Of a stretch of 64,000 bases of DNA, positions 27,131 to 54,385 are shown in pieces. A program made the translations under genes and the position numbers. The DNA is taken from assembly GCF_004364315.1 (NCBI RefSeq), contig NZ_SOBR01000006.1:1-64000 (forward strand), given 5' to 3'. The notes under the pieces were generated by a model, which was not told where the DNA came from, made no database searches, and saw nothing but the letters and a program-made list of their open reading frames with translations. Every line of letters starts with the position of its first letter. Positions within the stretch are counted from its first letter, which is position 1. Source of the DNA: Chromohalobacter marismortui (GTDB taxonomy: Bacteria > Pseudomonadota > Gammaproteobacteria > Pseudomonadales > Halomonadaceae).

Positions 27131-28024
27131 ATGGATACGCAAAGCCTGCAAGCCTTCCTCGCGGTCGCCGATCACGGTTCGTTCTCGCTCGCCGCGGAAC
27201 AGCTCCACCTGACCCAGCCTGCCGTCAGCAAGCGCATCGCGGGCCTCGAGGGACAGGTCGGCGCACAGCTCTTCGACCGTCTCAACCGCCGCGTGACGCT
27301 CACCGAAGCCGGTCGCACCCTGCTACCGCGTGCCCGCCAGATCCTGGTGATGTTCGACGACAGCCGTCGTGCGCTGTCCAACCTCAGCGGCGACATCAGT
27401 GGCAGCCTGACCATGGCCACCAGCCATCATGTCGGCCTGCACCGTCTGCCGCCGTTGCTCAAGGCCTATACCCAGGCCTATCCGGACGTACGCATGGACA
27501 TGCGCTTTCTGGACTCGGAACAAGCCTATCAAGGTGTGCTGGACGGCGACCTGGAGCTCGCCGTGGTCACCCTGGCGCCGGTCCCCGACCCGGCGCTGAC
27601 GGTGGTGCCGGTGTGGATCGACCAGTTGCGCTTCGTCTGCGGACGCGAGCACGCCCTCGCCGGGCGCGACACGGTCGCGCTGTCGGCACTCTCCGATCAC
27701 GACGCCGTGCTGCCGGGACATCTGACCTTCACCCGGGGCATCGTGGTGGACACCTTCGCCCGCGACGGCCTGCAGGTGAACGTCTCGCTGTCCACCAATT
27801 ACCTCGAAACCCTCAAGATGATGGTCGCCATCGGCCTGGGCTGGAGCGTACTGCCCGACACCATGATCGACGACGAGATCGAAGTCATGCCCATCGATCA
27901 CCGCCCCATCCAGCGTCCACTGGGCTATCTGTTCCACAAGAGCCGTACGCTTTCCAATGCCGCACGAGCCATGCTCGAGATGCTGGATGCCGCCCGGGAC
28001 ACGACGGCCCGGCAATGGATGTGA
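27131..28024 (+). CDS. LysR family regulator divergent from leuCDB
   Basis: This 297-residue LysR-type regulator has the helix-turn-helix 'SFSLAAEQLHLTQPAVSKRIAGLE' at residues 17-40 and an effector domain beginning 'GSLTMATSHHVGLHRLPPLL'. The divergent position suggests control of leuCDB-asd, a common pattern in Halomonas and Pseudomonas relatives. The ligand is unknown. A run of six Ts lies about 55 bp after the stop, but I cannot draw a convincing stem before it. Confidence 0.88.
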   Translation: MDTQSLQAFLAVADHGSFSLAAEQLHLTQPAVSKRIAGLEGQVGAQLFDRLNRRVTLTEAGRTLLPRARQILVMFDDSRRALSNLSGDISGSLTMATSHHVGLHRLPPLLKAYTQAYPDVRMDMRFLDSEQAYQGVLDGDLELAVVTLAPVPDPALTVVPVWIDQLRFVCGREHALAGRDTVALSALSDHDAVLPGHLTFTRGIVVDTFARDGLQVNVSLSTNYLETLKMMVAIGLGWSVLPDTMIDDEIEVMPIDHRPIQRPLGYLFHKSRTLSNAARAMLEMLDAARDTTARQWM

Positions 28025-28235: not shown

Positions 28236-29402
28236 ATGACCGACGCGACTCCCCACGCGTGGGCGGAACAGCCCACCGAAACGGCACTGACCCTTCCATC
28301 CCGTTATTTCTACGACCCGAAACTCTTCGACGCCGAACGTGACCGCATCTTCATGGGCGCCTGGCATTTCGCCTGTCACGTCAACGAGCTGGCCGAGCCC
28401 GGCGCCTTCGTGGTGCGCGATATCTTCGATCAGAGCGTCATCGTGATGCGGGACCGTCAGGGCGAGCTGCACGCCTTTCACAATGTCTGCCAGCACCGTG
28501 GCAACCGCCTGCTCGACAAGACGCGCGGCGTGCAGAAGAGCGTCATCCGGTGTGCCTATCATTCCTGGTGCTACGGGCTGGACGGCAGCCTGCGCGCCGC
28601 GCCGCGCAGCGATCGGATCGCGGCCTTCAATGTCGACGATTACCACATCCCGCCGGTACGCCTGGAAGTCTTCGCCGGGGGCGTCTACTTCAATCTCGAT
28701 CCCGACGCGACCGACATGCAGACGCTCTTCCCCGGTGCCGAGGCCGCCATCCGCGAGGCGATTCCAGGCCTGGACGCCATGCAGCTGATCCAAGAAGACG
28801 ACGTCATCGTCCCGGCCAACTGGAAAGTGATCATGGACAATTCCATCGAAGGCTATCACTTCCAGCTTTCAGGCCCCCACCACGTCGACCTGGCCGCCTT
28901 GATCGATTTCGATGGCTACCGCCTGACCCATCACGACAACTGGTGGACCTATGGCGCGCCGCCCAATGCCGATGCCAAGCAGGCATACGGCGTGCCGCTG
29001 GACCGCCCGCCCGGCAACGGCGATGGCTTTTTCAACATTGGTATCTGGCCGCATAACACCTTCTATCAGTTCCCGTTCTCGCAGTGCATGGGCACGTTCA
29101 TGATCATCCCGCTGGATGCCGAGCGCTCGATCCTGCGCTTCGGGTATTACACCCCTCACGACACGCTGCCGGAAGTGACCAGGGCCAGCATGCGCTGGAT
29201 GAACGAAGAGCTCGGCCCCGAAGACATCGAGCTCAACATCAGCGTGCAGAAAGGTCTGCACTCGCTGGGCTACGATCAGGGCCGCTACATGATCGATGCC
29301 GCACGCAGCAATGAAAGCGAGCACCTGGTGCTGCACTTCCACCGGCTGGTGTTCCAGGCCTTGCATGGCGACGCCACCACGCCCCAGGAGGTGCCGTCAT
29401 GA
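28236..29402 (+). CDS. Rieske oxygenase alpha subunit (CntA/GbcA/choline monooxygenase-like)
   Basis: This 388-residue ring-hydroxylating-type oxygenase has Rieske ligands C85, H87, C106 and H109. Its C-terminus ('SVQKGLHSLGYDQGRYM...SEHLVLHFHRL') resembles carnitine monooxygenase CntA and glycine betaine demethylase GbcA, so the substrate is probably a quaternary amine. Mononuclear iron ligands are likely D201/E205, H208 and H215 or H216; the second histidine is 6-7 residues after the first instead of the usual four. The ATG at 28236 has a GAGGCAGGA ribosome site, favouring it over 28224. Its stop overlaps the next gene (ATGA). The reductase encoded at 32900 is the probable electron donor. 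Substrate is not established. Confidence 0.85.
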   Translation: MTDATPHAWAEQPTETALTLPSRYFYDPKLFDAERDRIFMGAWHFACHVNELAEPGAFVVRDIFDQSVIVMRDRQGELHAFHNVCQHRGNRLLDKTRGVQKSVIRCAYHSWCYGLDGSLRAAPRSDRIAAFNVDDYHIPPVRLEVFAGGVYFNLDPDATDMQTLFPGAEAAIREAIPGLDAMQLIQEDDVIVPANWKVIMDNSIEGYHFQLSGPHHVDLAALIDFDGYRLTHHDNWWTYGAPPNADAKQAYGVPLDRPPGNGDGFFNIGIWPHNTFYQFPFSQCMGTFMIIPLDAERSILRFGYYTPHDTLPEVTRASMRWMNEELGPEDIELNISVQKGLHSLGYDQGRYMIDAARSNESEHLVLHFHRLVFQALHGDATTPQEVPS

Positions 29403-30166
29403 CATTCACCGGACAACGCGTACTGGTGACCGGCGGTGCCCGCGGTATCGGCGCCGCCACGGCACGGCGCTTTCTGGAACAGGGGGCACGCGTCGCCATC
29501 GGCGCGCGCCGAGAGGCCTCCGTAGACGCGTTTCGCGATTCGCTGGCGAATACCGACCTTACCACGGCCACGGTGGAAGCCGCCGTCGGCGAGATCGGCC
29601 CCCAGGACGAATCCCGGGCAGTCGTGGAAACCGCCGTCGCGCGTCTCGGTGGACTCGACATCCTGGTCAATTGCGCCGGCGTCTTCGAGGAAGTGCCCTT
29701 CGAGAAAGTCTCGCAGGAACACTGGGACAGCACCTTCCGCGTCAACGTGGGCGGCACCTTCTTCTGCCTCCAGGCGGCGCTACCGCACCTGGAGGCCAGT
29801 GGCGGCAACGTCGTCAATCTGGGCTCGGATGCCGGCTTGATCGGCTTTCCGCCGAGCAGCGTCTACTCCGGCGCCAAGGCCGCCGTGGTCAACCTGACCC
29901 GCGCCTTGGCCCTCGAGCTGGCCGGCCGCATACGGATCAACTGCGTGTGCCCGGGCAATGTCGAGACCGACATGATCCAGCACGCCGCCGAGACCAGCGA
30001 CGATCCACACGCCTACCTGGACGCGGCCCATCGACGTTCGCCCCTGAAGCGCATGGGGCAACCGCAAGAGATCGCCGATGCCGTGCTCTATCTCGCCTCT
30101 TCCCAGGCCGGCTTCACGCACGGCGCCATCCTGTCCGTCGACGGTGGCGGCGTGTGCGGCTTTTGA
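29399..30166 (+). CDS. SDR family oxidoreductase
   Basis: This 255-residue classical short-chain dehydrogenase has the NAD(P) motif 'TGGARGIGAA' at residues 11-20, 'NCAGVFEEVPFEKV' near 92, and catalytic 'YSGAKAA' (Tyr and Lys) near 157. The C-terminal 'GAILSVDGGGVCGF' is typical. Translation is coupled to the Rieske gene by a four-base overlap, so it should act on the oxygenase product or a nearby alcohol/ketone. Substrate unknown. Confidence 0.9.
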   Translation: MTFTGQRVLVTGGARGIGAATARRFLEQGARVAIGARREASVDAFRDSLANTDLTTATVEAAVGEIGPQDESRAVVETAVARLGGLDILVNCAGVFEEVPFEKVSQEHWDSTFRVNVGGTFFCLQAALPHLEASGGNVVNLGSDAGLIGFPPSSVYSGAKAAVVNLTRALALELAGRIRINCVCPGNVETDMIQHAAETSDDPHAYLDAAHRRSPLKRMGQPQEIADAVLYLASSQAGFTHGAILSVDGGGVCGF

Positions 30167-30187
30167 GCTCGCGCACCGCATCTGACG

Positions 30188-30219
30188 GCAACACAACGAC
30201 AACACAACGACAACACACC
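30188..30219 (+). repeat. Short direct repeat (GACAACACAAC, about three copies)
   Basis: Three near-identical 10-11-bp units (GCAACACAAC, GACAACACAAC, GACAACACACC) fill most of the 67-bp gap before the binding-protein gene, just before its GAGGAG ribosome site. Such an unstructured C/A-rich leader may favour translation, but could be a neutral duplication. Confidence 0.7.
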
Positions 30220-30233
30220 ACGAGGAGACTGCC

Positions 30234-31193
30234 ATGACCGCTATCCCCCGACACCGCACCCCGCTGGGCCGCTTGACGTCCACGCTGCTCGGCGTCGCCA
30301 TGAGCGCGCTACTGCTCGCGCCTTTCGGGATCGCCCAGGCCGAAGACGACATGGTCCGCTTCGGCACGCCGCAATGGCCCGGCGCCACCGTCAAGTCGGA
30401 AGTGGCGCGGCAACTGCTGGATACGCTCGGCTATCACACCACCCTGCGGGAAGCCAGCTCGTCGATCATCCTGGAAGCCATGGCGAGCGGCGATCTCGAC
30501 GTCAACATGGCGCTCTGGCGACCGTCGCAAAGCGGCATGCTCGATCCTCGCCTGGAGGCCGGCGAACTGGTCGAAGTCGTCAAGAACATCGACGGTGCGC
30601 GCTTCCAGCTCGCAGTGCCCGAATACGTGTGGGACGCCGGTGTGCACTCGATGGCCGACCTCGCCGAGCACGCGGAACGTTTTGACCGCACCTTCTATGG
30701 TATCGAGCCAGGCAACGTCGGCAACGAACTGATGCACAAGGCCATCGTCAACGGCACTTATGGCCTGGATGACTGGCAGGTCGCGGCCTCCAGCGTGACC
30801 GGCATGATGTCTCAGGTCGCAAGCGACATTCGTAACGGCCAATGGATCGCGTTCCTGGGCTGGGAACCGCATTGGATGAATGTCGACTTCGACATTCGCT
30901 ACCTGGAAGACCCCGAGAACCTCTGGGGCGACGCCAGCTCGGTGTCCACGGTGGTCGCCAGCGACTTCGCCGAGCGTCACCCCAACGTCATCGCCTTTCT
31001 CGACAACATGCGCGTGCCCATCGAGGTCCAAAACCAATGGGTCTACGCCTATAGCCGTGAGGACCAGCCGCTGAAATCGGTCGCCGCCGACTGGATCCAG
31101 TCGCATCCCGAACGGGTCAACACCTGGCTCGAAGGCGTAACCACGGCGGATGGCGAGACCCGCGCGCAAGACGCCTATCAGGCCTCGCGTTGA
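30234..31193 (+). CDS. ProX-like glycine betaine/choline-type substrate-binding protein
   Basis: This 319-residue secreted binding protein of the OpuAC/ProX family has a long basic N-terminal signal segment (cleavage near residue 34, 'GIAQAEDD'). Family features include 'NMALWRPSQSGML' near residue 88 and 'QWIAFLGWEPHWMNVDFDIRYLEDP' near 203; the tryptophans there normally form the box that cradles a trimethylammonium group. That supports quaternary-amine uptake. No ABC permease or ATPase gene is adjacent, so it must use components encoded elsewhere or serve as a periplasmic sensor. Confidence 0.87.
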   Translation: MTAIPRHRTPLGRLTSTLLGVAMSALLLAPFGIAQAEDDMVRFGTPQWPGATVKSEVARQLLDTLGYHTTLREASSSIILEAMASGDLDVNMALWRPSQSGMLDPRLEAGELVEVVKNIDGARFQLAVPEYVWDAGVHSMADLAEHAERFDRTFYGIEPGNVGNELMHKAIVNGTYGLDDWQVAASSVTGMMSQVASDIRNGQWIAFLGWEPHWMNVDFDIRYLEDPENLWGDASSVSTVVASDFAERHPNVIAFLDNMRVPIEVQNQWVYAYSREDQPLKSVAADWIQSHPERVNTWLEGVTTADGETRAQDAYQASR

Positions 31194-31222
31194 CCTTCCG
31201 CCCTCCGCCTCAGGATGCCTGC

Positions 31223-32887
31223 ATGACGACTCAACGAGATTACGACTACATCATCGTCGGGGCGGGATCGGCCGGCTGCGTGCTGGCCGACCGACTCACC
31301 GCCGATGGCGAATCCCGGGTGTTGCTGCTCGAAGCCGGCCCCCGCGATCGCTCATGGACCATCGACATGCCGGCCGCCATGGGGGCGGCCATCGATGGAC
31401 CACGCTTCAACTGGCACTATTGGTCGGGGCCCGAGCCCTACCTCGACGGACGGCGCATCGCCACGCCACGTGGGCGCACGCTGGGCGGCTCGTCGTCGAT
31501 CAACGGCATGGTGTACATCCGCGGTCACGCCCGCGATTACGATGCCTGGGAAGACGCCGGCTGTCCCGGCTGGGGTTACCGGCACGTCTTGCCCTACTTT
31601 CGCCGCGCCGAGACCCACGAACTGGGCGCCGATGCCTACCACGGCGAGACGGGGCCGTTGCATGTCAGTGCCGGACGCCCCGAGGATCCCCTGGCGAAAG
31701 CCTTCCTGGCCGCCGGCGAAGAAGCCGGCTACGCCACCAGCGACGACCTCAACGGCTATCGTCAGGAAGGCTTCGGCCGCGTCGATCGCACGACGCGCGC
31801 GGGCAGGCGCTGGAGCACCGCGCGTGGCTACCTGGCGCGCGCCGAGACGCGCGCCAACCTGACGGTCATGACCCATGCGCTGGCGCAGCGCGTGCTGATC
31901 GGCGAGACCGGTGCCGAAGGCATCGAATATCGCCACGCCGACACGCTGCACCGGGCACGCGCCACCCGCGAGGTCATCCTGGCAGGCGGCGCCATCAACA
32001 GCCCCCAGTTGCTGATGCTCTCCGGCATCGGCCCCGACGACGAACTGACCCGCTGGGGCATCCCTCGCGTGCATACGCTCGAGGGCGTGGGCCGCCGCCT
32101 CAGCGACCACCCGGACACCGTCGTGGCATATCGCTGTCGCCGGCCGGTCTCGCATGCCCCCTGGACCCACGCTCCCCGCAAGTGGTGGCTGGGCATGCGC
32201 TGGTTCCTCGACCGGCGCGGCCTCGCGGCGAGCAACCAGTTCGATGCCGGCGCCTTCATCCGCTCGCGGGCAGGGGTCGAGCATCCCGACATCCAGTTGA
32301 CGTTCATGTCTCTGGCCATCGCGCCCGGCACCACCGAAAGCCTGCGCGAGCATGCATTCCAGGTGCACATCGACTTGATGCGCCCCACGAGCATGGGCCG
32401 CCTGCGCCTCAGGAGCGCGGACCCCGCACAGGCGCCGGAGATCGTCTTCAACTACCTGGCCACCGAGCGCGACCGCGCCGACATGCGCGCGGCCGTGCGT
32501 CGCGTCAGGGAACTGATCGAGCAGCCGGCATTCGCGGATTTGCGGGGCGAGGAAATCTCCCCCGGTGCCGACTGCCAGAGCGATGAGGCGCTGGATGCCT
32601 GGGCGCGCGCCACCACCGAAACCGGCTATCACGCCGCCGGCACCTGCAAGATGGGGCCGGCCGACGATCCGGAGGCCGTGGTCGACCCCGAGCTTAGCGT
32701 GCATGGCATCAATGGTCTGCGCGTGGTCGATGCCTCGATCATGCCTCGCGTGGTCAGCGGCAACACCAATGCGCCGACCGTCATGATCGCCGAAAAGGCC
32801 AGCGACATGATCCTCGGCCACGCGCCGCCGGCGCCCTCGGATGCGCCCTTCTGGCTGCATGACGACTGGCAACACCAGCAACGTTGA
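31223..32887 (+). CDS. GMC family FAD oxidoreductase (choline dehydrogenase-like)
   Basis: This 554-residue GMC oxidoreductase has the FAD motif 'YIIVGAGSAGCVLADRLT' at residues 9-26, GMC signature 1 'GRTLGGSSSINGMVYIRGH' near 88, signature 2 'GAINSPQLLMLSGIGP' near 258, and the active-site His region 'YHAAGTCKMG' near 471. It resembles choline dehydrogenase BetA and would oxidise a primary alcohol to an aldehyde, with the aldehyde dehydrogenase two genes on completing oxidation. AGGATG precedes the ATG. Confidence 0.9.
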   Translation: MTTQRDYDYIIVGAGSAGCVLADRLTADGESRVLLLEAGPRDRSWTIDMPAAMGAAIDGPRFNWHYWSGPEPYLDGRRIATPRGRTLGGSSSINGMVYIRGHARDYDAWEDAGCPGWGYRHVLPYFRRAETHELGADAYHGETGPLHVSAGRPEDPLAKAFLAAGEEAGYATSDDLNGYRQEGFGRVDRTTRAGRRWSTARGYLARAETRANLTVMTHALAQRVLIGETGAEGIEYRHADTLHRARATREVILAGGAINSPQLLMLSGIGPDDELTRWGIPRVHTLEGVGRRLSDHPDTVVAYRCRRPVSHAPWTHAPRKWWLGMRWFLDRRGLAASNQFDAGAFIRSRAGVEHPDIQLTFMSLAIAPGTTESLREHAFQVHIDLMRPTSMGRLRLRSADPAQAPEIVFNYLATERDRADMRAAVRRVRELIEQPAFADLRGEEISPGADCQSDEALDAWARATTETGYHAAGTCKMGPADDPEAVVDPELSVHGINGLRVVDASIMPRVVSGNTNAPTVMIAEKASDMILGHAPPAPSDAPFWLHDDWQHQQR

Positions 32888-32899
32888 GGAGGACATGCC

Positions 32900-33853
32900 A
32901 TGACCGCGACGCCATTCAAGGTCGTGATCGACAGCCACCAGCGGCTATCGAGCGCTATCTACCAGATCGCGTTGGTCGCCGCCGATGGTGCCGCCCTGCC
33001 GCCGGCCCCGGCGGGCGCTCATCTCGAGGTGCGCCTGCCCAATGGCCTGATACGTCACTATTCGCTGCTGGACGACGCGCGTCACGGCCGCTATCGCATC
33101 GGCGTGCTGCATGACCCGGCATCCCGCGGGGGCTCCGCCTTTCTGGCCGAGCAGGCAAGCGTCGGTACGCGGCTGCGCGTCTCTGCGCCCCGGGACCGCT
33201 TTCCCCTCGCCGACGACCGGCGGCACTACCGGCTGATCGGGGGCGGGATCGGCATCACGCCGCTCGTCGCCATGGCGCGCCAACTCGTCGAGCGGGGCGA
33301 TGCGGTCGAGGTGCATTATCTGGTACGTCACCGGGACGAGGCGGCGTTCCTCGACGAACTTCGCGCGTTCCTGCCCGCATCGCAGTTGCACCTGCATGCC
33401 TCCGCCACGCAGGGAAGGCTCGCCCCGCGTGCGCTGCTGGGCGACTACACGCCGGAGACCGGCGTCTATGCCTGTGGCCCCGAAGGCCTGCTGGACGCCT
33501 TGACCGACGCGGCACAGGCGTGGCCCCCGGGCGCACTGCAAATGGAACGCTTCCGCGGCGCATCGCAAGCGCCGGCAGCGCGTACCACGCCTTGTCGGAT
33601 CGAGCTCGCGCGCAGCGACAAGCAGTTCACGCTCGCCGAGGACGAAACCCTGCTCGACGGTCTGGCGCGCGCCGGTGCGGCGCCGGACAGCCTGTGCTGC
33701 GAAGGCGCCTGCGGCACCTGCGGCATCCCCGTGCTCGAAGGCGAGGTCGAGCATCGCGACGTTCTTCAGTCCGATGCCGAAAAAGCCACCAACGACATCA
33801 TTTACGTCTGCGTTTCGCGCCCCAAGGGGGAGCGCCTGGTGCTCGACCTGTAA
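32900..33853 (+). CDS. Flavin/2Fe-2S oxidoreductase (GbcB/CntB/VanB-like reductase)
   Basis: This 317-residue phthalate-dioxygenase-reductase type protein has an FMN-binding barrel ('RHYSLLDD' near residue 52), an NAD domain ('LIGGGIGITPLVAMARQL' near 112, 'YACGPEGLLDAL' near 192), and a C-terminal plant-type ferredoxin with 'CCEGACGTCGIPVLEG' and a fourth Cys in 'IYVCVSRP'. It would pass electrons from NADH to the Rieske oxygenase of the same operon. AGGAGG precedes the ATG. Confidence 0.92.
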   Translation: MTATPFKVVIDSHQRLSSAIYQIALVAADGAALPPAPAGAHLEVRLPNGLIRHYSLLDDARHGRYRIGVLHDPASRGGSAFLAEQASVGTRLRVSAPRDRFPLADDRRHYRLIGGGIGITPLVAMARQLVERGDAVEVHYLVRHRDEAAFLDELRAFLPASQLHLHASATQGRLAPRALLGDYTPETGVYACGPEGLLDALTDAAQAWPPGALQMERFRGASQAPAARTTPCRIELARSDKQFTLAEDETLLDGLARAGAAPDSLCCEGACGTCGIPVLEGEVEHRDVLQSDAEKATNDIIYVCVSRPKGERLVLDL

Positions 33854-33904
33854 GGTCGGCGCGAGCGCTTTCCACGCCCATTCGACAACCGCCAAGGTAT
33901 GGTC

Positions 33905-35419
33905 ATGTCTTCCACCTCTATGTCTTCCCCTCCCACGCCTCCCACTCACGCCGACTGGCAACACCGTGCCGCCACCCTCTCGCTGGAGGGCGCCGCCTAC
34001 ATCGACGGTCACCGCTATGTGACGCGCCAGGGTGAATCCCTCGCGTCGATCAACCCCATGACGGGCACGTCGCTGACGGCGATCGCGGCCTGCGGCCCGG
34101 CGGATATCGACGTCGCGGTCGACGCGGCACGCCGCGCGTTCGAGCTCGGTGCCTGGTCACGTGCCGAGCCGACGACACGCCGCCGGGGCCTGCAGGCGCT
34201 CGCCGCGCAGGTGCGCGACCACGCCGAGGAACTGGCCCTGCTCGACAGCCTGGAGGTCGGCAAGTGCATCCACGAAGCCCTGGACGACGTCGAGGAGGCG
34301 GCCCTGCTCTTCGACTGGTTCGGCGAGCTCCAGGACAAATGCTACGACCAGCTCGCGCCCAGTCCTAATAACGTACAAGCCACGGTGGCCCACGAGCCCC
34401 TCGGCGTCGTCGCCACCGTGGTCCCGTGGAACTTTCCCCTGCATAACGCGGCGGTGAAACTGGCGCCCGCGCTGGCCGCCGGCAACAGCGTGGTGCTCAA
34501 GCCCGCCGAGGAGTCGTCGCTCTCCGCGCTGCGCCTGGCGGAACTCGCGACCCAGGCCGGCCTTCCGCCCGGGGTGCTCAATGTCGTACCGGGATACGGA
34601 CATGTCGCCGGCGAAGCGTTGGGTCGGCATGCGGGTGTCGACGCGCTCGGCTTCACCGGCTCCACCGAAATCGGCAAACGCTTTCTGGTCTACTCGGGCG
34701 AATCCAACATGAAACCCGTATGGCTGGAATGCGGCGGCAAGAGTCCGCATCTGGTGTTCGACGATTGCCCCGATCTGGAGGCCGCCGTGGACAACGCCGT
34801 GGCCGGTATCTTCACCAACGCCGGCCAGGTCTGCTCGGCGCATTCGCGCCTGTTGCTGCAAGAGGGCATCGCCGAGCGCTTTCTCGAGGCCCTGCAGGCA
34901 CGTATCGCGACGCTCGTGCCGGGAGACCCGCTCGATCCGGCGACGACGCTCGGCCCGCTCGTCAGCCAGGCACAGTTCGACAAGGTCCGCGACTACCTGG
35001 CGGTCGGCAAGCATGAGGCCACCCTGTTGTGCGGCGGCGAGACGCTGCAGGCGGCGGGCGGTGCCTTGTTCGTCGCCCCCACGGTATTCATCGATGTCGA
35101 ACCGCATCACCGGCTCTTCCAGGAGGAGATTTTCGGTCCCGTGCTCAGCGTGACGCGCTTCAGCGACGAGCGCCAGGGCGTGACATTGGCCAATGCCAGC
35201 CAGTATGGTTTGGCAGCGTCCCTGTGGACCGCCGACCTGGGACGCGCCCATCGCCTGTGCGATGCCCTGCAGGCCGGCACCGTGACGGTCAATGGCGTCG
35301 ATGCCGTCAGCCCGCAGACGCCTTTCGGCGGCATGAAGCAATCCGGCATCGGCCGTGACTACGCGCTGGCCGGCATGCACAAATACATGGCGCTCAAGAC
35401 GCGCTGGATCCACTATTGA
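33905..35419 (+). CDS. Aldehyde dehydrogenase (BetB-like)
   Basis: This 504-residue NAD(P)-dependent aldehyde dehydrogenase has 'VVPWNFPLHNAAVKLAPAL' near residue 175, the general-base Glu in 'LECGGKSPHLVFD' near 278, and the catalytic Cys in 'FTNAGQVCSAHSRLL' near 312. It is similar in layout to betaine-aldehyde and gamma-aminobutyraldehyde dehydrogenases. The start at 33905 sits 7 bases from AAGG; an ATG two codons upstream is too close. It probably oxidises the aldehyde made by the GMC enzyme or released by the oxygenase. Confidence 0.9.
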   Translation: MSSTSMSSPPTPPTHADWQHRAATLSLEGAAYIDGHRYVTRQGESLASINPMTGTSLTAIAACGPADIDVAVDAARRAFELGAWSRAEPTTRRRGLQALAAQVRDHAEELALLDSLEVGKCIHEALDDVEEAALLFDWFGELQDKCYDQLAPSPNNVQATVAHEPLGVVATVVPWNFPLHNAAVKLAPALAAGNSVVLKPAEESSLSALRLAELATQAGLPPGVLNVVPGYGHVAGEALGRHAGVDALGFTGSTEIGKRFLVYSGESNMKPVWLECGGKSPHLVFDDCPDLEAAVDNAVAGIFTNAGQVCSAHSRLLLQEGIAERFLEALQARIATLVPGDPLDPATTLGPLVSQAQFDKVRDYLAVGKHEATLLCGGETLQAAGGALFVAPTVFIDVEPHHRLFQEEIFGPVLSVTRFSDERQGVTLANASQYGLAASLWTADLGRAHRLCDALQAGTVTVNGVDAVSPQTPFGGMKQSGIGRDYALAGMHKYMALKTRWIHY

Positions 35420-35454
35420 TGGCCTCGGTTTCGCCATCGCCACAGGAGCGAGAC

Positions 35455-36189
35455 ATGACGACCGCTACCGAGCTTCCCGGTACCCTCCGCGAACAGCTGG
35501 CCTGCGCGTTCCGCTGGCTGGCTCGCCTCGACATGCACGAAGGCGTCGCCAATCACTGCAGCCTGGCCACCCAGGCGGACGGCAGGCGCTTTCTGGTCAA
35601 CCCCGAAGGGCGTCATTTCGCGGAAATGCGTGCCAGCGACCTCGTCGAGGTGGATGCCAGCGCCGCACAACGTCCCGAATCCATCGACCCCACCGCCTGG
35701 GCCATTCACGGCGCCATGCACCGCCAGGGCCGCGGCGTGGGGTGCGTGATGCATGCCCACTCGCTCTACGCCACCGCCCTGGCCTGCCTGGAGACACCGG
35801 AGCTGCCCCCGGTGGAACAGAACGCCATGCGCTTCTTCGAGCGGGTGCACATCGATACCGGATTCGATGGCATGGGACTCGACGAAGAAGCGGAACGCCT
35901 CGGCAAGCTGGCCGGCACGGCACCGATCCTGCTGCTCGGCAATCATGGCGTGGTCGCCACCGGCCACGACGTCGCCGAAGCCTTCGACCACCTCTATTAC
36001 TTCGAGCGTGCCTGCCGCTCCTATCTGGTGGCCCGTGCCAGCGGCCTTCCCGTGCGTCCTGTCGCGCCCGAAGTCGCACGCAAGACCGCCCAGCAATGGG
36101 AAGACTATCTGGCACAAGGCTCGGCGCACATGCACCTTGCCGCCTTGATGCGCCTGCTCGACCGCGACGCCCCCGATTACCGTGATTGA
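35455..36189 (+). CDS. Class II aldolase/adducin family protein
   Basis: This 244-residue protein of the fuculose-phosphate aldolase/adducin fold has the metal-binding pair 'MHAHSLYATAL' near residue 100 and a third His in 'LLLGNHGVVATGHD' near 165. The family includes aldolases, epimerases, dehydratases and decarboxylases, so the reaction is open. An aldolase-type enzyme is not part of known choline, glycine betaine or carnitine routes. An AGGAGCG ribosome site supports the ATG at 35455. The final codons overlap the regulator gene. Confidence 0.85.
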   Translation: MTTATELPGTLREQLACAFRWLARLDMHEGVANHCSLATQADGRRFLVNPEGRHFAEMRASDLVEVDASAAQRPESIDPTAWAIHGAMHRQGRGVGCVMHAHSLYATALACLETPELPPVEQNAMRFFERVHIDTGFDGMGLDEEAERLGKLAGTAPILLLGNHGVVATGHDVAEAFDHLYYFERACRSYLVARASGLPVRPVAPEVARKTAQQWEDYLAQGSAHMHLAALMRLLDRDAPDYRD

Positions 36190-37195
36190 CACGCGACGCC
36201 CGACGCCCGGGCCGGAGCGCATCGCGATCCTGCTGATGCCGCAGTTTTCCTTTGCCGGTCTGGGGGCGATGCTGGACCCGCTGTTCATCGTCAACTGGCT
36301 GACCCAGGAATCGCGCTTCAAGTGGCAGTTGCTGGGCAGCGATGCCACGGTCGCCGCCTCCAACGGCGTCCCCCTGAACGTGGATACCGAGTGGCCGGCA
36401 CCAGCCGATCTGGACAGCGTGTTCGTCCTCGCCAGTTTCGAGACCAAGACGTATACCGGCGACAAGCGCATCGCCATGTGGCTGCGCCAGTGTGCGGCGG
36501 CCGGGGTGGCATTGGGCGGCATCGAGATGGGCAGCGAAGTACTGGCCGCAGCGGGCGTGCTCGACGAGCATCAGGTGGCCGTGCACTGGGATAATCTGGA
36601 AGGCTTTCGCGAGCTTTATCCACGCATCCAGGCCACCAGCGACCTCTATCGCATCGCCGGCCAGCGGCTGAGCTGCGCCGGTGGCACCGCCGTGCTCGAC
36701 ATGATGTTCGCCTGGCTCACGCCACGTGTGGAGCCGCCCTACATGGAGGAATTGCGCAATCACTTGCTGGAACGCCGCCAGCGTCGCGACGACAGCGAAC
36801 AGTTGTCGGCGGCCCCCGAGCACCATGTCGAGACGTCGGCGCAGTTGCGCAAGGTGATTCGCACCATGCGCCGCACCCTGGAAACCCCGCTCTCGGCACC
36901 GGCGCTGGCCGCCCTCGTGGGGCTCTCGCCGCGCCAGCTCGAGCGGCGCTTCAAGGCCGAGCTCGGCGTCACGCCGATTCGTTATTACCTGTGGCTGCGT
37001 ATCAATCGCGCGCATCGACTACTGCAGCAGACCGACCTGAGCGTGGCAGAGGTCGCCAATTGCGCCGGCTTCGGCTCTCTGGAGCATTTCTCCCGTGCCT
37101 ACCGGCGCTTCTTCGGCTGCGCGCCCAGCGACGACCGCCTGCAGTCGCGAGACGCCCCGGTGGTCCCGGTGCGACTCTTTCCGATCAAGCGCTGA
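36182..37195 (+). CDS. GATase1-AraC family regulator (GbdR/CdhR-like)
   Basis: The 337-residue regulator joins an N-terminal DJ-1/PfpI (class I glutamine amidotransferase-like) sensor domain (residues about 12-190) to a C-terminal AraC DNA-binding domain with two helix-turn-helix motifs ('LSAPALAALVGLSPRQLERRF' and 'SVAEVANCAGFGSLEHFSRAYRRFF'). This architecture is shared by GbdR, CdhR and SouR, which sense glycine betaine/dimethylglycine, carnitine and sarcosine. It starts with GTG, overlapping the aldolase gene, and is last in the operon it probably activates. This is the strongest clue that the cluster handles a betaine. Confidence 0.9.
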   Translation: MIDTRRPTPGPERIAILLMPQFSFAGLGAMLDPLFIVNWLTQESRFKWQLLGSDATVAASNGVPLNVDTEWPAPADLDSVFVLASFETKTYTGDKRIAMWLRQCAAAGVALGGIEMGSEVLAAAGVLDEHQVAVHWDNLEGFRELYPRIQATSDLYRIAGQRLSCAGGTAVLDMMFAWLTPRVEPPYMEELRNHLLERRQRRDDSEQLSAAPEHHVETSAQLRKVIRTMRRTLETPLSAPALAALVGLSPRQLERRFKAELGVTPIRYYLWLRINRAHRLLQQTDLSVAEVANCAGFGSLEHFSRAYRRFFGCAPSDDRLQSRDAPVVPVRLFPIKR

Positions 37196-37207: not shown

Positions 37208-39064
37208 TCATGACGTCGAGGCGTCGTCATCCGCAGGATGGAGACCCAACACTTCGGGAATGGTTTGCCGTACATAGCGGCCCGGCGCGGGTTCGATGGG
37301 GACCAACTCGCCATCGCCGGGGTGGCGCGCCGCCACGCTCTTGTCGGGATCGGCGTAGCGGTTGTCGGTCATCCAGGCCTGCCAGTGCGGCCACCAGGAG
37401 CCCTCGTTAAAGGTCGCTTCCTCGAGCCAGGCATCGGGGTCGTCGGGGATCTCGTCATGCGTCCAATAACCGTACTTGCGTTTCGCCGGTGGATTGACGA
37501 TCCCCGCGATGTGCCCGGCCCCCCCCAACACGAAGGTGCTAGGTCCCTTGGGCAGGCGAGCCCCCAGGTAGCTGCTTCGCCATTTGGCGATGTGATCGTC
37601 GCGCGCAGAGACGAAGTAGCTCGGTGTCGACACCTTGCGCAGGTCGATCTTGACGCCATCCAGCTCTATGCCGCCGGATTGAGCGAGACGATTCTCGCGA
37701 TACATGTGACGCAGGTACCAACCGTGCGTGCCTGCCGGCAGGTTGGTGCCATCGCTGTTCCAATACAGCAGGTCGAAGGCTGCCGGCGCCTCACCCTTGA
37801 GATAATTGCTGATGTAGAACGACCAGAAAAGGTCGTTCTCACGTAGCAAGTTGAACGAGAAGGCCATGGCACGGCCATCGAGATAGCCGTCACGCGCGAG
37901 TTGGCGCTCGATGCCGGCCAGCACCGGCTCACTGAGAAAGACACCGATTTCGCCGGGATCGCTGAAATCCTGCAGCGTCGCCATGTAGGTGACCGAGCGG
38001 ACCTTGCGTCCGCGCCGGCTGCTGGTCAGATAGGCGACCGTGGTCGCCGCCAGCGTGCCACCGATGCAATAGCTCAACAGGTTGACGGACTTCTCGCCGC
38101 AGGCTTGCTCGATGGCTGCCATCGCGGCGATCGGCCCCGACTGCATGTAATCGGCCCAGGTCACATGGCGCTGCTCGGGCCCGGGGTTGCGCCAGGAAAT
38201 CATGAATACCGTATGGCCCTGCGCCACCAGCCACTTCACCAGCGAGTTATCCGGACGCAAGTCAAGCACGTAATACTTGTTGATCCAGGGGGGGACGATC
38301 AACAGTGGCGTCTTGAAGACCTCGTCGGTACTCGGATGATACTGGATCAGCTGCATCAACTCGTTTTCGAAGATCACCTCGCCCGGCGTAATGGCCAGGT
38401 TTTCTCCTAGCCGGAAGGCACTTCGATCACTCATCGCCACATTGAGGCCTTCGGCGGAATTGGCCAGATCCTCACGCAGTCGCTTGATCCCCTCGACGAG
38501 ATTCTGTCCACGCGTTTCGAGGGTCTTGCGTACCACTTCAGGGTTGGTGGAGACGAAGTTGCTCGGCGCCAGCGCATTGACGTATTGCCGCGCGTAGAAT
38601 TCAAGCTGATGGCGCGTCTCGGGCGTCAAACCGCCCAGATGCGTCAACAACTCGTTGACGGCACGCACGAACAGCAAATACTGCTGCAAGATATAATGAT
38701 AAAAGGGATGGGAATGCCAGGCATCGTCCCGAAAGCGTCGATCCTCGGGACTCGGCTCGATCACTGCTGGAGGGCGCTCACCCATGAGTTCCCGCAGGGT
38801 ATTTTGCCACACGCGTAACTGATCCTGGGCCAGACGCATCTGCACGGTATACACCGCCGGCGCATTGACGACCATGGCCTCGGCACCAATACGCAGGCTC
38901 TCTTGCATGTCGGCATACACCGACGCGCCAGCGTCGCTGGGCCATAGACGATTGAAGGCCTCTTGCATGAGGGCTTGGTATTGCTCACCGAACGCACTCA
39001 CCTGGCGCTGCCAGGCGTGCGGGTCACCGAAGACATCCTCGCCCTCTTCAGGCCCTTGCCACAT
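37208..39064 (-). CDS. phaC: Class I poly(3-hydroxyalkanoate) polymerase PhaC
   Basis: This 618-residue enzyme polymerises hydroxyacyl-CoA into PHA granules. The alpha/beta-hydrolase core shows the lipase-like box 'SYCIGGTLA' (Cys near residue 332), Asp in 'VSARDDHIAKW' and His in 'GGAGHIAGIVNPP'. The first box residue is Ser rather than the usual Gly (G-x-C-x-G-G). Size fits class I, which works without PhaE or PhaR. A GGGGGAG ribosome site precedes the ATG. A phasin gene lies 95 bp upstream on the same strand; the two are probably co-transcribed. It converges with the AraC-type regulator, with only 12 bp between stops. Confidence 0.95.
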   Translation of the reverse strand: MWQGPEEGEDVFGDPHAWQRQVSAFGEQYQALMQEAFNRLWPSDAGASVYADMQESLRIGAEAMVVNAPAVYTVQMRLAQDQLRVWQNTLRELMGERPPAVIEPSPEDRRFRDDAWHSHPFYHYILQQYLLFVRAVNELLTHLGGLTPETRHQLEFYARQYVNALAPSNFVSTNPEVVRKTLETRGQNLVEGIKRLREDLANSAEGLNVAMSDRSAFRLGENLAITPGEVIFENELMQLIQYHPSTDEVFKTPLLIVPPWINKYYVLDLRPDNSLVKWLVAQGHTVFMISWRNPGPEQRHVTWADYMQSGPIAAMAAIEQACGEKSVNLLSYCIGGTLAATTVAYLTSSRRGRKVRSVTYMATLQDFSDPGEIGVFLSEPVLAGIERQLARDGYLDGRAMAFSFNLLRENDLFWSFYISNYLKGEAPAAFDLLYWNSDGTNLPAGTHGWYLRHMYRENRLAQSGGIELDGVKIDLRKVSTPSYFVSARDDHIAKWRSSYLGARLPKGPSTFVLGGAGHIAGIVNPPAKRKYGYWTHDEIPDDPDAWLEEATFNEGSWWPHWQAWMTDNRYADPDKSVAARHPGDGELVPIEPAPGRYVRQTIPEVLGLHPADDDASTS

Positions 39065-39159: not shown

Positions 39160-39597
39160 TTACTGTTTGCTGCTACCGCGTGAAGAAGACGATTGGCTAT
39201 TGCTGCTCGCCGCCTTGGCGGGTTCGGATGCCGCCTTCATGTTTTCTGATGCCTGATCGGCGGCCTGTTGCCCTGTTTCCGACACCATCTCTTCCAGGTC
39301 GGCCTTGAACTTCAGGCTGATGTCGGCCATCGCACGGGCGTCTTCGAGCATTTGCTTGGACAGCGAATTCAGCATGTCGGCCTGTTGCGCGGTGAAATCG
39401 CGTGCGTCATCGGCGTCCTTGACCTCGGAGGCCGCCCGCATACGCTCCACGCCCAACTGGCTATAGCGCTTCATGGCATCGAGCTGGTATTCGGTCATTC
39501 GCTCCATGTTGTCCAGCATCAGACCGTTGAACTTGCGCATGGGCTCGAAAAAGCCACGCGTCTGTTCTGAAAAGGCACCAAACATTTTGTCCTGCAT
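39160..39597 (-). CDS. phaP: Phasin family protein
   Basis: This 145-residue, mostly helical amphipathic protein is predicted to coat PHA granules. The N-terminal 'FSEQTRGFFEPMRKFNGLMLDNMERM' region and the heptad-like middle are typical of the phasin_2/TIGR01841 type; the C-terminal 35 residues are low-complexity Ala/Lys/Ser with a run of serines ('SSNSQSSSSRGSSK'), suggesting a flexible tail. It lies immediately upstream of phaC. Confidence 0.88.
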   Translation of the reverse strand: MQDKMFGAFSEQTRGFFEPMRKFNGLMLDNMERMTEYQLDAMKRYSQLGVERMRAASEVKDADDARDFTAQQADMLNSLSKQMLEDARAMADISLKFKADLEEMVSETGQQAADQASENMKAASEPAKAASSNSQSSSSRGSSKQ

Positions 39598-52517: not shown

Positions 52518-53834
52518 TCAGTTAAACATCAGGTTAGGTAGCCATAACGCCAGCTGCGGGAAGAAAAGCACCAGCACCATGCCAATCACCTGCAGTGCGA
52601 TGAACGGCAACACAGCCACAAAAATATGTTGCAACTCGATACCTTTGGGCGCCACGCTCTTCAGGAAAAAACAGGCCGGGCCAAATGGCGGTGACAGATA
52701 ATAGATCTGGATATTCATCGCGAACAGCACACCGAACCAGACCGGATCGAAGCCCAGACCAACAACCACCGGCGCAAAGATCGGCACGGTAATGAAGATG
52801 ATTGCAATCCACTCCAAGAATGTGCCCAGCACCATGACAATTGCCATCATGATCGCGATAATAGCCAGCGGATGCATATCGAGGCCTTTCAGGAAATCTG
52901 TCAGGAAGCTAACCCCACCGATCAGATTATAAATACCAACCAGACTCACTGCCCCTAGCACCAACCAAATAATAGAACCTACAGTCAGTGCAGTCTGGCG
53001 CATGGCATCTCGAATCATGCGATAAGAGAACTGCTTGAGAATAGCCGATACGATCATGGCGCCCACAGCTCCCATGGCAGCTGCTTCGGTAACGGTCGTG
53101 ATGCCTGTATAGATCATCCCTAGCACCATACCGATCAATAGAAACGGTAGGATAGCCCCTTTCAGATACTTGAGACGCTTATAGAGAGGCAACGCTGTTT
53201 CAGGAATATCGTTAATCGGCGCCAATGACGGGTTAAGCTTGCAGCGTATAATTATATAGACAATAAATATGCTGGCCAAGAGAACACCTGGAATGGCGCC
53301 TGCGGCAAACAGTTTGGTGATTGATACCTGAGCTGCAAGGCCATAGACAATCATTACTACCGAGGGAGGAATGAGTGTCGCTAGGGCACCGGCAGCACAG
53401 ATGATACCAATCGATAAATTACGATCATAACCGAGACGTAACATCTGCGGCAGGGCAATCAGGCCGAGCATCACAATCTCACCGCCCATGATCCCACTCA
53501 TCGCTGCGAGAATAACGGCTACCACGCAAGTTTGGACAGCTACCGAGCCACGAGCACGTCCACCAAGAATGGACATACTATCAAAGAGCGCGTGGGCTAT
53601 GCCCGATCGTTCTAGCACGTTAGCCATGAACACGAAGAAAGGTACCGCGACTAGCTCGTATTTTTCCAGAACATGATAAACGTTAGAGGCTACCAGGAAT
53701 AAGCCATTGGTACCGTAGTAGATCAGTGCTGTAACGACTGACACTAAAAGTGTAGTAACACCAAGCGGAATACCAAAAGCCATTAACGCAAGCAATGCTA
53801 GAACAATTAATAATGTAACGACTTCGATACCCAT
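52518..53834 (-). CDS. dctM: TRAP transporter large permease DctM
   Basis: This 438-residue, roughly 12-helix DctM-family protein is the sodium-coupled translocating subunit of a TRAP transporter. Typical stretches: 'FGIPLGVTTLLVS' near residue 20, 'SGIMGGEIVMLGLIALPQML' near 115, and 'GTFLEWIAIIFITVPIFAPVV' near 340. It overlaps dctQ by one base (TAATG). Sequence is AT-richer than the surrounding genome: 24 G+C in 60 bases at 53221-53280. Confidence 0.95.
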   Translation of the reverse strand: MGIEVVTLLIVLALLALMAFGIPLGVTTLLVSVVTALIYYGTNGLFLVASNVYHVLEKYELVAVPFFVFMANVLERSGIAHALFDSMSILGGRARGSVAVQTCVVAVILAAMSGIMGGEIVMLGLIALPQMLRLGYDRNLSIGIICAAGALATLIPPSVVMIVYGLAAQVSITKLFAAGAIPGVLLASIFIVYIIIRCKLNPSLAPINDIPETALPLYKRLKYLKGAILPFLLIGMVLGMIYTGITTVTEAAAMGAVGAMIVSAILKQFSYRMIRDAMRQTALTVGSIIWLVLGAVSLVGIYNLIGGVSFLTDFLKGLDMHPLAIIAIMMAIVMVLGTFLEWIAIIFITVPIFAPVVVGLGFDPVWFGVLFAMNIQIYYLSPPFGPACFFLKSVAPKGIELQHIFVAVLPFIALQVIGMVLVLFFPQLALWLPNLMFN

Positions 53835-54385
53835 TAGTCGGCATCCTTTTCATCATGGATGGCGGACGTCACCAGGTGGTTACGTTCCTCCGCACGGTCT
53901 TCAAACCAATGCACGACATTGGCTAACAATTGCAAGACATAAATAAATGCTCCCACTACTAGTGTCGGCTTAAGATAAGCTGGTAGCGGTGAATTGAAAG
54001 CACTGCCGCTTCTTTCGATGCCTTGTATTGCATGAACTGCAGGCCCCCAACCAGCCCACACCAACATCGACAGAGCGAAGATGGCGGCTACCAGTGATAC
54101 CAACTCCATTTTTTTCCATACAGATGCAGGTACCAACAGCTCAACCATGGTAATCGCTATGTGACGCTTGCGCTGGGTAACATAGCCACTTGTCAGCACC
54201 CAGCCAGTGGCACATAGCGCCATGACAGTCTCGAATGTCCATAGCGTTGGTGAGTCAAACACATAACGCATAACAACTTCGAGAGCGGACAGCACAATAC
54301 ACGCAAAAAACAAAACGGCACATGCATAACCGATAAAAACACTGACCCGGTCCATACCGGCCGCCAAGCGACTTAAAAAGGACAT
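53834..54385 (-). CDS. dctQ: TRAP transporter small permease DctQ
   Basis: This 183-residue protein has four hydrophobic segments in the DctQ pattern, with 'VVMRYVFDSPTLWTFETVMALCATGWVLTSGY' containing the family's 'R-Y-V-F' and aromatic-rich region. It pairs with DctM and the periplasmic DctP protein. I place the start at ATG 54385 (GGGGA eight bases upstream). The following gene dctM overlaps its stop. Confidence 0.93.
   Translation of the reverse strand: MSFLSRLAAGMDRVSVFIGYACAVLFFACIVLSALEVVMRYVFDSPTLWTFETVMALCATGWVLTSGYVTQRKRHIAITMVELLVPASVWKKMELVSLVAAIFALSMLVWAGWGPAVHAIQGIERSGSAFNSPLPAYLKPTLVVGAFIYVLQLLANVVHWFEDRAEERNHLVTSAIHDEKDAD

Follow-up and report, generated by a model that had tools for sequence, protein, structure and literature searches.

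A conserved Rieske oxygenase gene cluster of Chromohalobacter marismortui, probably a module for the breakdown of a choline-like quaternary-ammonium alcohol

As osmolytes and as products of membrane breakdown, quaternary amines are of major importance. Their cleavage can yield trimethylamine, from which TMAO and methylamines relevant to climate are formed. To our knowledge the known bacterial routes are those for choline, glycine betaine, carnitine, stachydrine and a small number of other compounds. The locus studied here is a run of eight genes at 28236-37195 of the window (the whole stretch of DNA analysed, 64,000 nucleotides of the Chromohalobacter marismortui contig NZ_SOBR01000006.1), and it raises the question of which compound these genes degrade. 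An earlier sequence-only reading had proposed a quaternary-amine module distinct from CntAB, GbcAB and BetAB. This distinctness is now probable, given an oxygenase nearest to CntA, a ChoX-type binding protein, a BetA-like dehydrogenase and a GbdR-like regulator that stay under their cut-offs, and the separate betA, choX, gbcA and gbdR genes that the same genome carries, each over its cut-off. The reading we favour, and consider probable, is an uncharacterised module that breaks down a choline-like quaternary-ammonium alcohol, one other than choline, carnitine or glycine betaine, through the steps proposed below.

All eight open reading frames are intact and on the + strand, and their order agrees with the earlier description: a Rieske oxygenase (RO), a short-chain dehydrogenase/reductase (SDR), a binding protein (SBP), a GMC dehydrogenase, a reductase (RED), an aldehyde dehydrogenase (ALDH), a class II aldolase-like protein (ALD2) and an AraC-type regulator. 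The two start/stop overlaps noticed then are real as well, one of 4 bp between RO and SDR and one of 8 bp between ALD2 and the regulator gene. The families, assigned by Pfam and NCBIfam profiles, are those originally named, with Pfam giving no GATase1 match in the regulator; the coordinates given here include stop codons. Promoter-like and terminator-like matches were at shuffle level, with 2 and 5 of them respectively, compared with 1.1 and 4.6 for shuffled sequence. A LysR gene at 27131-28024 probably does not belong to the system, since it adjoins leuCDB and is retained in three genomes that have lost the cluster.

The grouping of these genes is not due to chance, because 73 of the 82 loci that we selected by RO also contain GMC, the regulator and ALD2. 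A comparison of oxygenase neighbourhoods had been suggested as a check on the sequence-only reading, and this conserved linkage with its four-gene core is what it returned. The co-occurrence spans gamma-, beta- and alphaproteobacteria, with the mid-points of the four genes lying within 2.6-8.3 kb, and taken singly GMC is found in 79 of the loci, the regulator in 76 and ALD2 in 74. Less constant are SBP (45), ALDH (40, counted at a score of at least 300 bits) and RED (24; the RED loci listed contain no Pseudomonas). The SDR (29399-30166; PF13561 (adh_short_C2)/PF00106), counted at the same threshold, is present in 14 loci and absent in Aidingimonas, while two Burkholderia clusters (L071 and L074) carry a different SDR. 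It is accessory, and the idea that an SDR is a hallmark of the pathway was not borne out.

Among 201 sampled genomes of the host's family RO was found in 16. RO, SBP, GMC, RED, ALDH, ALD2 and the regulator keep the same order in all 15 RO-bearing genomes other than this one, and the SDR is kept in 14 of these. A close ALD2 orthologue is present in 16 of 16 RO-bearing genomes and occurs without RO in only 3 of the 201; in those three, within the stretch examined, it lies beside the same LysR gene and the other cluster genes are missing or broken. The module is thus conserved but patchy in its distribution, and it is sometimes plasmid-borne. Incomplete forms include RO loci without GMC, regulator or ALD2 (L108), with GMC as the sole core partner (L115) or without ALD2 (L109 and L111), two identical ROs with no partner in 5.5 kb upstream (L105) or 8.6 kb downstream (L106), and a genome (G208) in which ALD2 is about 44 kb from RO on the same contig. 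An already characterised homologous cluster would have spoken against the proposal as first made; among the matches listed, none was found in the open-licence literature. The core recurs across many soil and salt-water bacteria. That halophiles, pseudomonads and Burkholderiaceae share a cluster with an oxygenase clade of its own suggests that saline and soil habitats hold a natural quaternary alcohol that has been overlooked.

The RO (28236-29402; PF00355 and Ring_hydroxyl_A PF00848) is a CntA-like Rieske non-haem iron oxygenase. Its nearest solved chain is CntA at about 218 bits, compared with about 92 bits for Stc2 and 135 bits for the GbcA model NF058607, whose cut-off of 670 is not reached, and its clade stands separate beside carnitine monooxygenase CntA with support of 95/96. 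Its closest fold is also that of CntA (TMq 0.82-0.87). The Rieske and iron ligands and the bridging Glu205 (C85, H87, C106, H109, E205, H208, H216 and D330) are shared with CntA and present in 83 of 83 RO rows, and both enzymes have a C-terminal 2Fe-2S reductase gene and an ALDH gene close by. However, RO differs from CntA by Ser203 for Tyr, N270Y, Y295F, Y315M and F319L and by a His-x7-His in place of His-x4-His; five of the seven CntA pocket residues are replaced, with the substitutes kept in 81-83 of the 83 rows. Judged by sequence, RO is similar to the enzyme that splits carnitine but differs from it in the substrate pocket. In CntA, Tyr295 is in polar contact with the substrate; RO has Phe there.

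The kinship with CntA/YeaW, the closest relatives of RO, is also the starting point for a variant of carnitine or gamma-butyrobetaine breakdown, in which RO would perform a CntA-like C-N cleavage and ALD2 would replace the later carnitine enzymes. An ALD2 relative on a Shinella plasmid does have a BKACE gene and a carnitine-dehydrogenase-like gene (468 of 592 bits) as neighbours, and another relative adjoins a gamma-butyrobetaine/TmpA-type dioxygenase. We find this variant very unlikely in view of the changed pocket and of a GMC alcohol dehydrogenase that has no obvious job on carnitine. The BCCT transporter and tartrate dehydrogenase that neighbour cntA/yeaW in the two loci viewed are also not among the eight genes, the neighbours of RO being GMC, ALD2 and the GbdR-like regulator.

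Residue 203 bears on the type of reaction. According to PMC7948474, this position is Tyr or Phe in group Va and Asn in group Vb, the latter including the demethylating enzymes GbcA and Stc2. In the RO clade it is Ser in 81 of 83 rows, with one Asn and one Ala, so that the aromatic of group Va is absent and the Asn of group Vb, with which the genome's own GbcA aligns, is not the residue of the clade. With Ser203, RO lacks the pi-cation residue by which the quaternary-amine group Va is defined. The Cys206-x-x-Cys209 pair described for some group V enzymes (PMC10952381) is also lost, with Gly206 in 83 of 83 rows and Ser instead of the second Cys in 82. Sequential N-demethylation, in which RO would strip a methyl group from a quaternary alcohol or acid, the rest being left to housekeeping demethylases, has its precedent in group Vb and in the similarity of the RO fold to stachydrine demethylase (TMq about 0.77). 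We regard it as unlikely, since RO scores nearer to CntA than to Stc2 or the GbcA model and carries Ser rather than Asn at 203, and among the annotated or scanned neighbours we noticed neither a demethylase nor a formaldehyde gene.

The other genes bring choline itself into consideration. The SBP (30234-31193; OpuAC PF04069) is a predicted ChoX/ProX-type periplasmic quaternary-amine binding protein; the sequence-only reading had called it ProX-like, and the quaternary-amine OpuAC family stands, with ChoX as the type. It reaches 270 bits with the choline-binding model TIGR03414, below the cut-off of 379.05, which is exceeded by the SBPs of the two other clusters scanned, L019 on a Pseudomonas plasmid (471.7) and L071 of Burkholderia (457.4). 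The three Trp of the ChoX alignment are retained, but the Asp position of ChoX is Gly, where the genome's own ChoX has Asp. The GMC dehydrogenase (31223-32887; GMC_oxred N and C, NF002550 over cut-off) is choline-dehydrogenase-like, of subfamily PRK02106, and scores 669.9 bits with BetA TIGR01810 (674.2 for the L019 GMC), below the equivalog cut-off of 732.1. All 80 GMC rows have Asp298, and the genome's own BetA has Glu at the same place, which we take to be that of choline oxidase Glu312, presumably the carboxylate that binds the trimethylammonium group and positions the substrate. The best NCBIfam matches of the ALDH (33899-35419; Aldedh PF00171) are PuuC and BADH, both below cut-off (457.5 of 668.6 bits for the BADH equivalog TIGR01804). 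For the L019 ALDH the best match is BADH (596.9 of 668.6 bits, again below), and the halomonad and Pseudomonas ALDHs differ in best-matching family. RED (32900-33853; PF00111 and NAD_binding_1 PF00175), an oxygenase reductase with C-terminal 2Fe-2S (Fer2), matches the GbcB model weakly, at 46 of 500 bits. The GATase1-AraC regulator (36182-37195; HTH_18) scores 234 bits over residues 11-323 with the GbdR model NF052371, short of the equivalog cut-off of 480.

The cluster thus has the GMC, ALDH and choline-type SBP of BetA/BetB and ChoX/Cbc systems and the oxygenase and regulator types of GbcAB/GbdR, but with scores below the cut-offs. A second choline or glycine betaine route, in which GMC and ALDH would form glycine betaine and RO would release trimethylamine and glyoxylate or demethylate it, could draw on the BetA- and BADH-like enzymes, the GbdR-like regulator and the two SBPs over the choline-binding cut-off. 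We judge it quite unlikely, because the genome already has its own genes for these functions, the Asp in GMC and the Gly in SBP depart from BetA and ChoX, and such a route has no need for ALD2.

The low scores of the window proteins, together with the loss of the Va aromatic and the Cys pair in RO, could also mean that the cluster acts on something other than a quaternary amine (e.g. a tertiary amine alcohol, a sulfonium or an aromatic compound) and that the choline-like families reflect ancestry only. From Ser203 and the change of CntA Tyr295 to Phe it follows that the compound may be no quaternary amine or, alternatively, may have no carboxylate when it is bound, in which case RO would act ahead of GMC and ALDH. 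The former is improbable given the three Trp of the SBP, the two SBPs that do pass, the types of GMC and regulator, and the betaine-type transporter (OpuAC-type binding protein, ATPase and permease) found upstream of regulator and RO in a Rhodospirillaceae cluster (L104). Also, Tyr277, present in 83 of 83 RO rows at the position of CntA Asn270, could take over cation binding.

ALD2 (35455-36189; Aldolase_II PF00596, 146.9 bits with a cut-off of 22.2) belongs to the PRK07490 family (NF005689, 362.9 bits with a cut-off of 260). The metal-binding His triad (H100, H102 and H164) is present in 75 of 75 ALD2 rows, and so is Ala81 at the place of FucA Glu73 in the x-W-x-x-H motif, a match made by eye to what we assume to be the FucA letters. 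The predicted model (pLDDT 91.7) is ranked by Foldseek E-value to 3ocr, TqaM, 4xxf, NovR and pyruvic oxime dioxygenase (POD), with E. coli FucA later. Its TMq is 0.80-0.85 for NovR/TqaM and 0.77-0.79 for POD, compared with 0.65-0.71 for the listed FucA and bacterial aldolase entries, yet 4xxf, named a fuculose aldolase, has 0.82 and the top match 3ocr is of no known function. NovR, TqaM and POD share the class II aldolase fold and the His triad with ALD2 at 19-30% identity, and in POD, according to PMC11841055, Glu164 and Tyr233' stand in for FucA Glu73 and Tyr113'. Because Glu73 is missing and the modelled fold is near NovR, TqaM and POD, ALD2 seems likelier to be a decarboxylase or an Fe(II) oxygenase than an aldolase. 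Of the carbon-carbon cleavage or decarboxylation originally suggested for it, retro-aldol cleavage has become less likely and decarboxylation stands. If ALD2 is an iron oxygenase, many genes annotated as class II aldolase by their fold alone may be misnamed. ALD2-family proteins occur without RO, GMC or dioxygenase in 12 of the 14 alphaproteobacterial neighbourhoods examined; ALD2 is therefore not peculiar to quaternary amines.

For the choline-like quaternary alcohol that we favour, we infer every reaction, the reaction order, the transporter partner and the substrate as follows. With no permease or ATPase gene among the eight, the SBP would pass the compound on to an ABC core encoded at another locus, and the GbdR-like protein would sense a pathway compound. 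GMC would oxidise the primary alcohol to the aldehyde and ALDH the aldehyde to the acid. RO and RED would hydroxylate a carbon on the quaternary nitrogen, giving trimethylamine and a short semialdehyde as in CntA, or demethylation. ALD2 would decarboxylate a short oxo- or hydroxy-acid, possibly with O2, and in some hosts the SDR would oxidise or reduce an intermediate. Because the GMC carboxylate is shortened by one methylene, the substrate might be a three-carbon choline homologue (3-hydroxypropyl- or 2,3-dihydroxypropyl-trimethylammonium), which is our leading guess, though we consider it doubtful.

A more specific version of this scheme is possible, though on balance not likely. It would be a new pathway in which two non-haem iron oxygenases follow each other. 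The first, of a third quaternary-ammonium Rieske clade with Ser203, a widened His-x7-His site and a rebuilt pocket, would act on a three-carbon homologue of choline or on the corresponding acid, and the second would be ALD2 as an Fe(II) oxidative decarboxylase rather than an aldolase; some Rhodobacterales would arrive at this chemistry with a 2-oxoglutarate dioxygenase taking the part of the Rieske enzyme. As an analogue that speaks for the choline-like reading, plasmid clusters of Rhodobacterales contain a PRK07490-family ALD2, a BetA-like GMC, an ALDH and a short-chain hydroxyacid reductase. They differ from the eight-gene cluster in having a gamma-butyrobetaine/TmpA-type 2-oxoglutarate dioxygenase instead of RO, a HIBADH-type reductase instead of the SDR and LysR (or LacI) instead of AraC, and they add a mandelate-racemase-family dehydratase and have a GMC without the Asp.

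The eight genes lie where the sequence-only reading had placed them, in a single forward-strand run at 28236-37195 with overlaps of 4 bp and 8 bp, and the families it assigned to them are borne out by Pfam and NCBIfam. The genome containing the window is 3.55 Mb in size, and the Rieske oxygenase of the cluster shares 96% identity with its Chromohalobacter canadensis counterpart, which makes the host very probably a Chromohalobacter. A promoter and terminator scan gave no more matches than were found in shuffles. The genes directly downstream, on the reverse strand, encode a polyhydroxyalkanoate synthase of PhaC type (37208-39064; Pfam PhaC_N) and a phasin (39160-39597; Pfam Phasin_2).

The eight-gene set is not a chance assembly. 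The oxygenase is present in 16 of 201 same-family genomes at E <= 1e-60, the window's own included, and in all 15 other halomonad neighbourhoods that bear it the oxygenase, binding protein, GMC dehydrogenase, 2Fe-2S reductase, aldehyde dehydrogenase, class II aldolase-like protein (ALD2) and GATase1-AraC regulator occur in the same order, with the short-chain dehydrogenase (SDR) kept in 14. A wider set of 82 loci was chosen by the oxygenase: a genome contig scan gave 246 related stretches, the best 80 were taken, and two plasmid loci were added. These 80 include many of the 15 halomonad genomes, and the counts use fixed bit thresholds, with matches below threshold scored as missing. In this set the GMC dehydrogenase was found at 79 of the 82 loci, the AraC regulator at 76 and ALD2 at 74, and all three together with the oxygenase at 73, where the mid-points of the four genes are 2.6-8.3 kb apart. 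The binding protein (45/82), aldehyde dehydrogenase (40/82), reductase (24/82) and SDR (14/82) are less constant. Halomonadaceae, Pseudomonas, Burkholderiaceae and alphaproteobacteria vary in gene order and strand, so the genes have stayed linked despite being rearranged.

Nine of the 82 loci do not show all four genes. One locus (L103) was scored as having no AraC regulator, though two AraC pieces were found there, and at two others (L072 and L078) the contig ends near the oxygenase. L109 and L111 lack ALD2, L115 has the GMC dehydrogenase only and L108 has no partner; the oxygenases of these four have 51-58% identity. L105 and L106 carry identical oxygenases and each meets a contig end on one side, so that one shows the upstream and the other the downstream side, and no partner gene is seen on either, which means that the oxygenase can occur without the cluster. 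L105, L106 and L108 are contigs of Thiotrichaceae and other gammaproteobacterial MAGs, with no GMC dehydrogenase, AraC regulator or ALD2 in the available sequence; the neighbours of the L108 oxygenase are a second, divergent Rieske oxygenase and a transporter that by eye is of polyamine type.

The cluster is an accessory trait of patchy distribution. The oxygenase is rare across the phylum: of 398 genomes sampled, 4 have it at E <= 1e-90, one of them the window genome. In two of the other three, ALD2 is no more than about 4 kb from the oxygenase, and in the third (G208) it is about 44 kb away. Oxygenases of 60-80% identity are present on three plasmid records. The copy on Pseudomonas aeruginosa plasmid pF045_1 (L019, 2622-22359) has no SDR and no adjacent reductase among the listed genes, and has a recombinase gene on either side and a Tn3/mercury-resistance segment upstream. 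In a record titled Mycobacterium sp. KBS0706 (L114, 10001-11140), the oxygenase and its Inquilinus limosus counterpart group together, separated by very short branches, which likely reflects either a mislabelled record or a recent transfer.

Of the 201 genomes, 19 have a close ALD2 orthologue (72-100% identity), namely all 16 with the oxygenase and three more, two of the same genus (G025 and G041) and one other halomonad (G040). The stretches in these three (L151, L152 and L153) are deletion relics of the cluster. Within the stretches covered, G025, which has no oxygenase at E <= 1e-60, retains ALD2 alone, its reading frame still open; in G041 the sole remnant is an ALD2 with a stop codon, which was excluded from one further analysis; and G040 retains an aldehyde dehydrogenase fragment, ALD2 and a broken regulator. 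In all three ALD2 still adjoins the same LysR gene that precedes the cluster in the window (27131-28024). We rejected this LysR as the cluster regulator because leuCDB is its neighbour, the conserved genes of the Pseudomonas and Burkholderia clusters do not include it, and it stays by ALD2 after the cluster is lost. The relics point to it as a probable bystander that belongs with the leu genes.

CntA is both the nearest solved chain and the nearest fold for the oxygenase, which has 33.7% identity to A. baumannii cntA and 35.2% to Klebsiella YeaW. In a 43-row tree of 38 of the 83 oxygenases, selected by us, and five others, with long outgroup branches and a root placed for drawing only, the 38 cluster oxygenases form one clade (95/96) separate from cntA, yeaW and a Ruegeria relative. 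The Rieske ligands, the iron ligands and Glu205 are invariant and shared with CntA, whereas five of the seven CntA pocket residues named in section 6 of PMC7948474 differ. Tyr225 and Phe258 are kept, and Tyr203, Asn270, Tyr295, Tyr315 and Phe319 are replaced by Ser, Tyr, Phe, Met and Leu respectively, at every one of these positions in 81-83 of 83 rows. That paper divides the quaternary-amine enzymes into group Va, whose residue 203 is Tyr or Phe (carnitine, choline, benzalkonium), and group Vb, where it is Asn (glycine betaine, stachydrine); here Ser occupies the position in 81 of 83 rows. The Cys206/Cys209 pair described in PMC10952381 is missing, and the two iron histidines are spaced by seven residues in the alignment, not four. 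From the conserved electron path and the rebuilt pocket we infer the same chemistry class as CntA and a different substrate. Another CntA-like oxygenase, 33% identical to that of the window, lies on a Ruegeria plasmid (L139, 5932-13050) with choline-sulfatase, SDR, BKACE and aldehyde dehydrogenase genes, and may belong to another, unassigned cluster of quaternary-amine type.

The GMC dehydrogenase scores high enough to be placed in the broad subfamily of choline dehydrogenases (763.6 bits, cut-off 605) and misses the BetA cut-off (669.9 of 732.1). All 80 rows of its family have an Asp in a DHPD motif where the genome's own BetA has a Glu (DHLE), a position that we take to be Glu312 of choline oxidase, a residue whose part in substrate binding is, by its title, the subject of a paper cited by PMC12839357. 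A carboxylate one methylene shorter would suit a substrate one methylene longer. The aldehyde dehydrogenase best matches PuuC (554.9 of 850), and that of the Pseudomonas plasmid cluster BADH (596.9 of 668.6). On the choline-binding model the window binding protein scores 270 of 379 bits, that of the P. aeruginosa plasmid 471.7 and that of one Burkholderia cluster 457.4. In an alignment of 46 rows, three Trp that match ChoX are conserved in 45 or 46; at the position of the ChoX Asp, 30 rows also have Asp and 15, of the window and halomonad type, have Gly. None of the eight genes encodes a permease or ATPase, and in this the binding protein is like the orphan binding proteins of Pseudomonas, which share one ABC core; at one locus (L104) the genes upstream of the cluster do include an ATPase and a permease, along with an OpuAC protein. 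The genome has its own betA, choX, gbcA and gbdR elsewhere, all above cut-off.

ALD2 belongs to NCBIfam PRK07490, named 'hypothetical protein' (362.9 of 260). Its metal-binding residues His100, His102 and His164 never vary, and the position of FucA Glu73, matched by eye, is Ala in all 75 rows of an alignment that excluded the truncated L063 sequence. The AlphaFold model (pLDDT 91.7), used like our other structure predictions for fold matching only, matched in order 3ocr (no known function), TqaM, 4xxf, which carries a fuculose-aldolase name, NovR and pyruvic oxime dioxygenase (POD), with E. coli FucA lower. POD, as described in PMC11841055 and PMC5216522, is an Fe(II) dioxygenase of class II aldolase fold whose sequence does not conserve FucA Glu73 and Tyr113, and in which Glu164 and Tyr233' fill their places structurally; the work on POD raises the possibility that class II aldolases of unassigned function could be oxygenases. 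Given the absent Glu73, the POD precedent and a fold ranking that leans the same way, although the aldolase-named 4xxf is within it, the predicted function of ALD2 is more likely that of a decarboxylase or Fe(II) oxygenase than that of an aldolase.

The idea that ALD2 marks quaternary-amine clusters exclusively was rejected on its other neighbourhoods. Of 14 further neighbourhoods of close relatives, L168 has the gamma-butyrobetaine/TmpA-type dioxygenase and L165 a GMC gene, the Rieske oxygenase is seen in none, and 12 have none of the three; the neighbours that could be named are adenine deaminase, AMP nucleosidase, a DNA-binding protein, a fatty-acid-hydroxylase-family protein and an oxidoreductase. 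Two plasmid relatives (L161 and L162) are in unrelated contexts, in a third (L163) the one gene of note is a short TauD/TfdA gene on the far side of an IS66 element, and two halomonad relatives of about 45% identity (L154 and L155) have no cluster partner.

Taken as a whole, the cluster is probably a catabolic module for a choline-like quaternary-ammonium alcohol; a three-carbon chain is our leading guess for the substrate, though one of low probability. A choline homologue would be taken up and oxidised by the GMC dehydrogenase and then the aldehyde dehydrogenase, the Rieske oxygenase would hydroxylate next to the nitrogen with loss of trimethylamine, and ALD2 would decarboxylate the product, with the SDR as an optional redox step. 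Trimethylamine loss is favoured over demethylation because the oxygenase is closest to CntA and a casual look noticed no demethylase or formaldehyde gene nearby. Given the change of Tyr295 to Phe, the oxygenase may instead act on the alcohol first. Homarine catabolism and other published pathways were rejected as descriptions of the cluster, as no paper among the matches listed from one open-licence library (for example 20 of 172 and 20 of 555), judged mostly by title and the start of the abstract, was recognised as describing it. Quaternary-amine catabolism with a Rieske oxygenase is a known kind of system, and what sets this cluster apart is an oxygenase clade of its own and an aldolase-fold enzyme of no assigned function.

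Plasmids of Paracoccus seriniphilus (L158, 5021-12263) and Rhodobacteraceae SC52 (L159, 5967-13284) carry an ALD2 of PRK07490 type with a HIBADH/tartronate-semialdehyde-type reductase, a gamma-butyrobetaine/TmpA-type 2-oxoglutarate dioxygenase, an aldehyde dehydrogenase, a BetA-like GMC dehydrogenase and a mandelate-racemase-family dehydratase, apparently a parallel quaternary-amine pathway. Next door in Paracoccus are a betaine-type (OpuAC) binding protein and a TMAO-demethylase-like gene (1435-3360; 1035 of 1100 bits), the latter hinting that trimethylamine or TMAO may be an intermediate there. These clusters have a dioxygenase where the window cluster has the Rieske oxygenase, and ALD2, the GMC dehydrogenase and the aldehyde dehydrogenase are common to both, which by analogy suggests the same logic with another oxygenase. 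However, the Rhodobacterales GMC enzymes are without the Asp, and the 12 partnerless ALD2 neighbourhoods also argue against a shared logic. On a Shinella plasmid (L160, 2768-8935) ALD2 adjoins carnitine-3-dehydrogenase-like, GcvT-like and BKACE genes.

Elsewhere in the window, a reverse-strand region at 52521-57962 encodes a TRAP transporter (DctP, DctQ and DctM), an enolase-superfamily protein and a DHDPS-family protein. The third-position GC of the transporter and enolase genes is 0.44-0.54, against 0.65-0.84 in flanking genes, and the region is thus probably an acid-sugar catabolism locus acquired horizontally.
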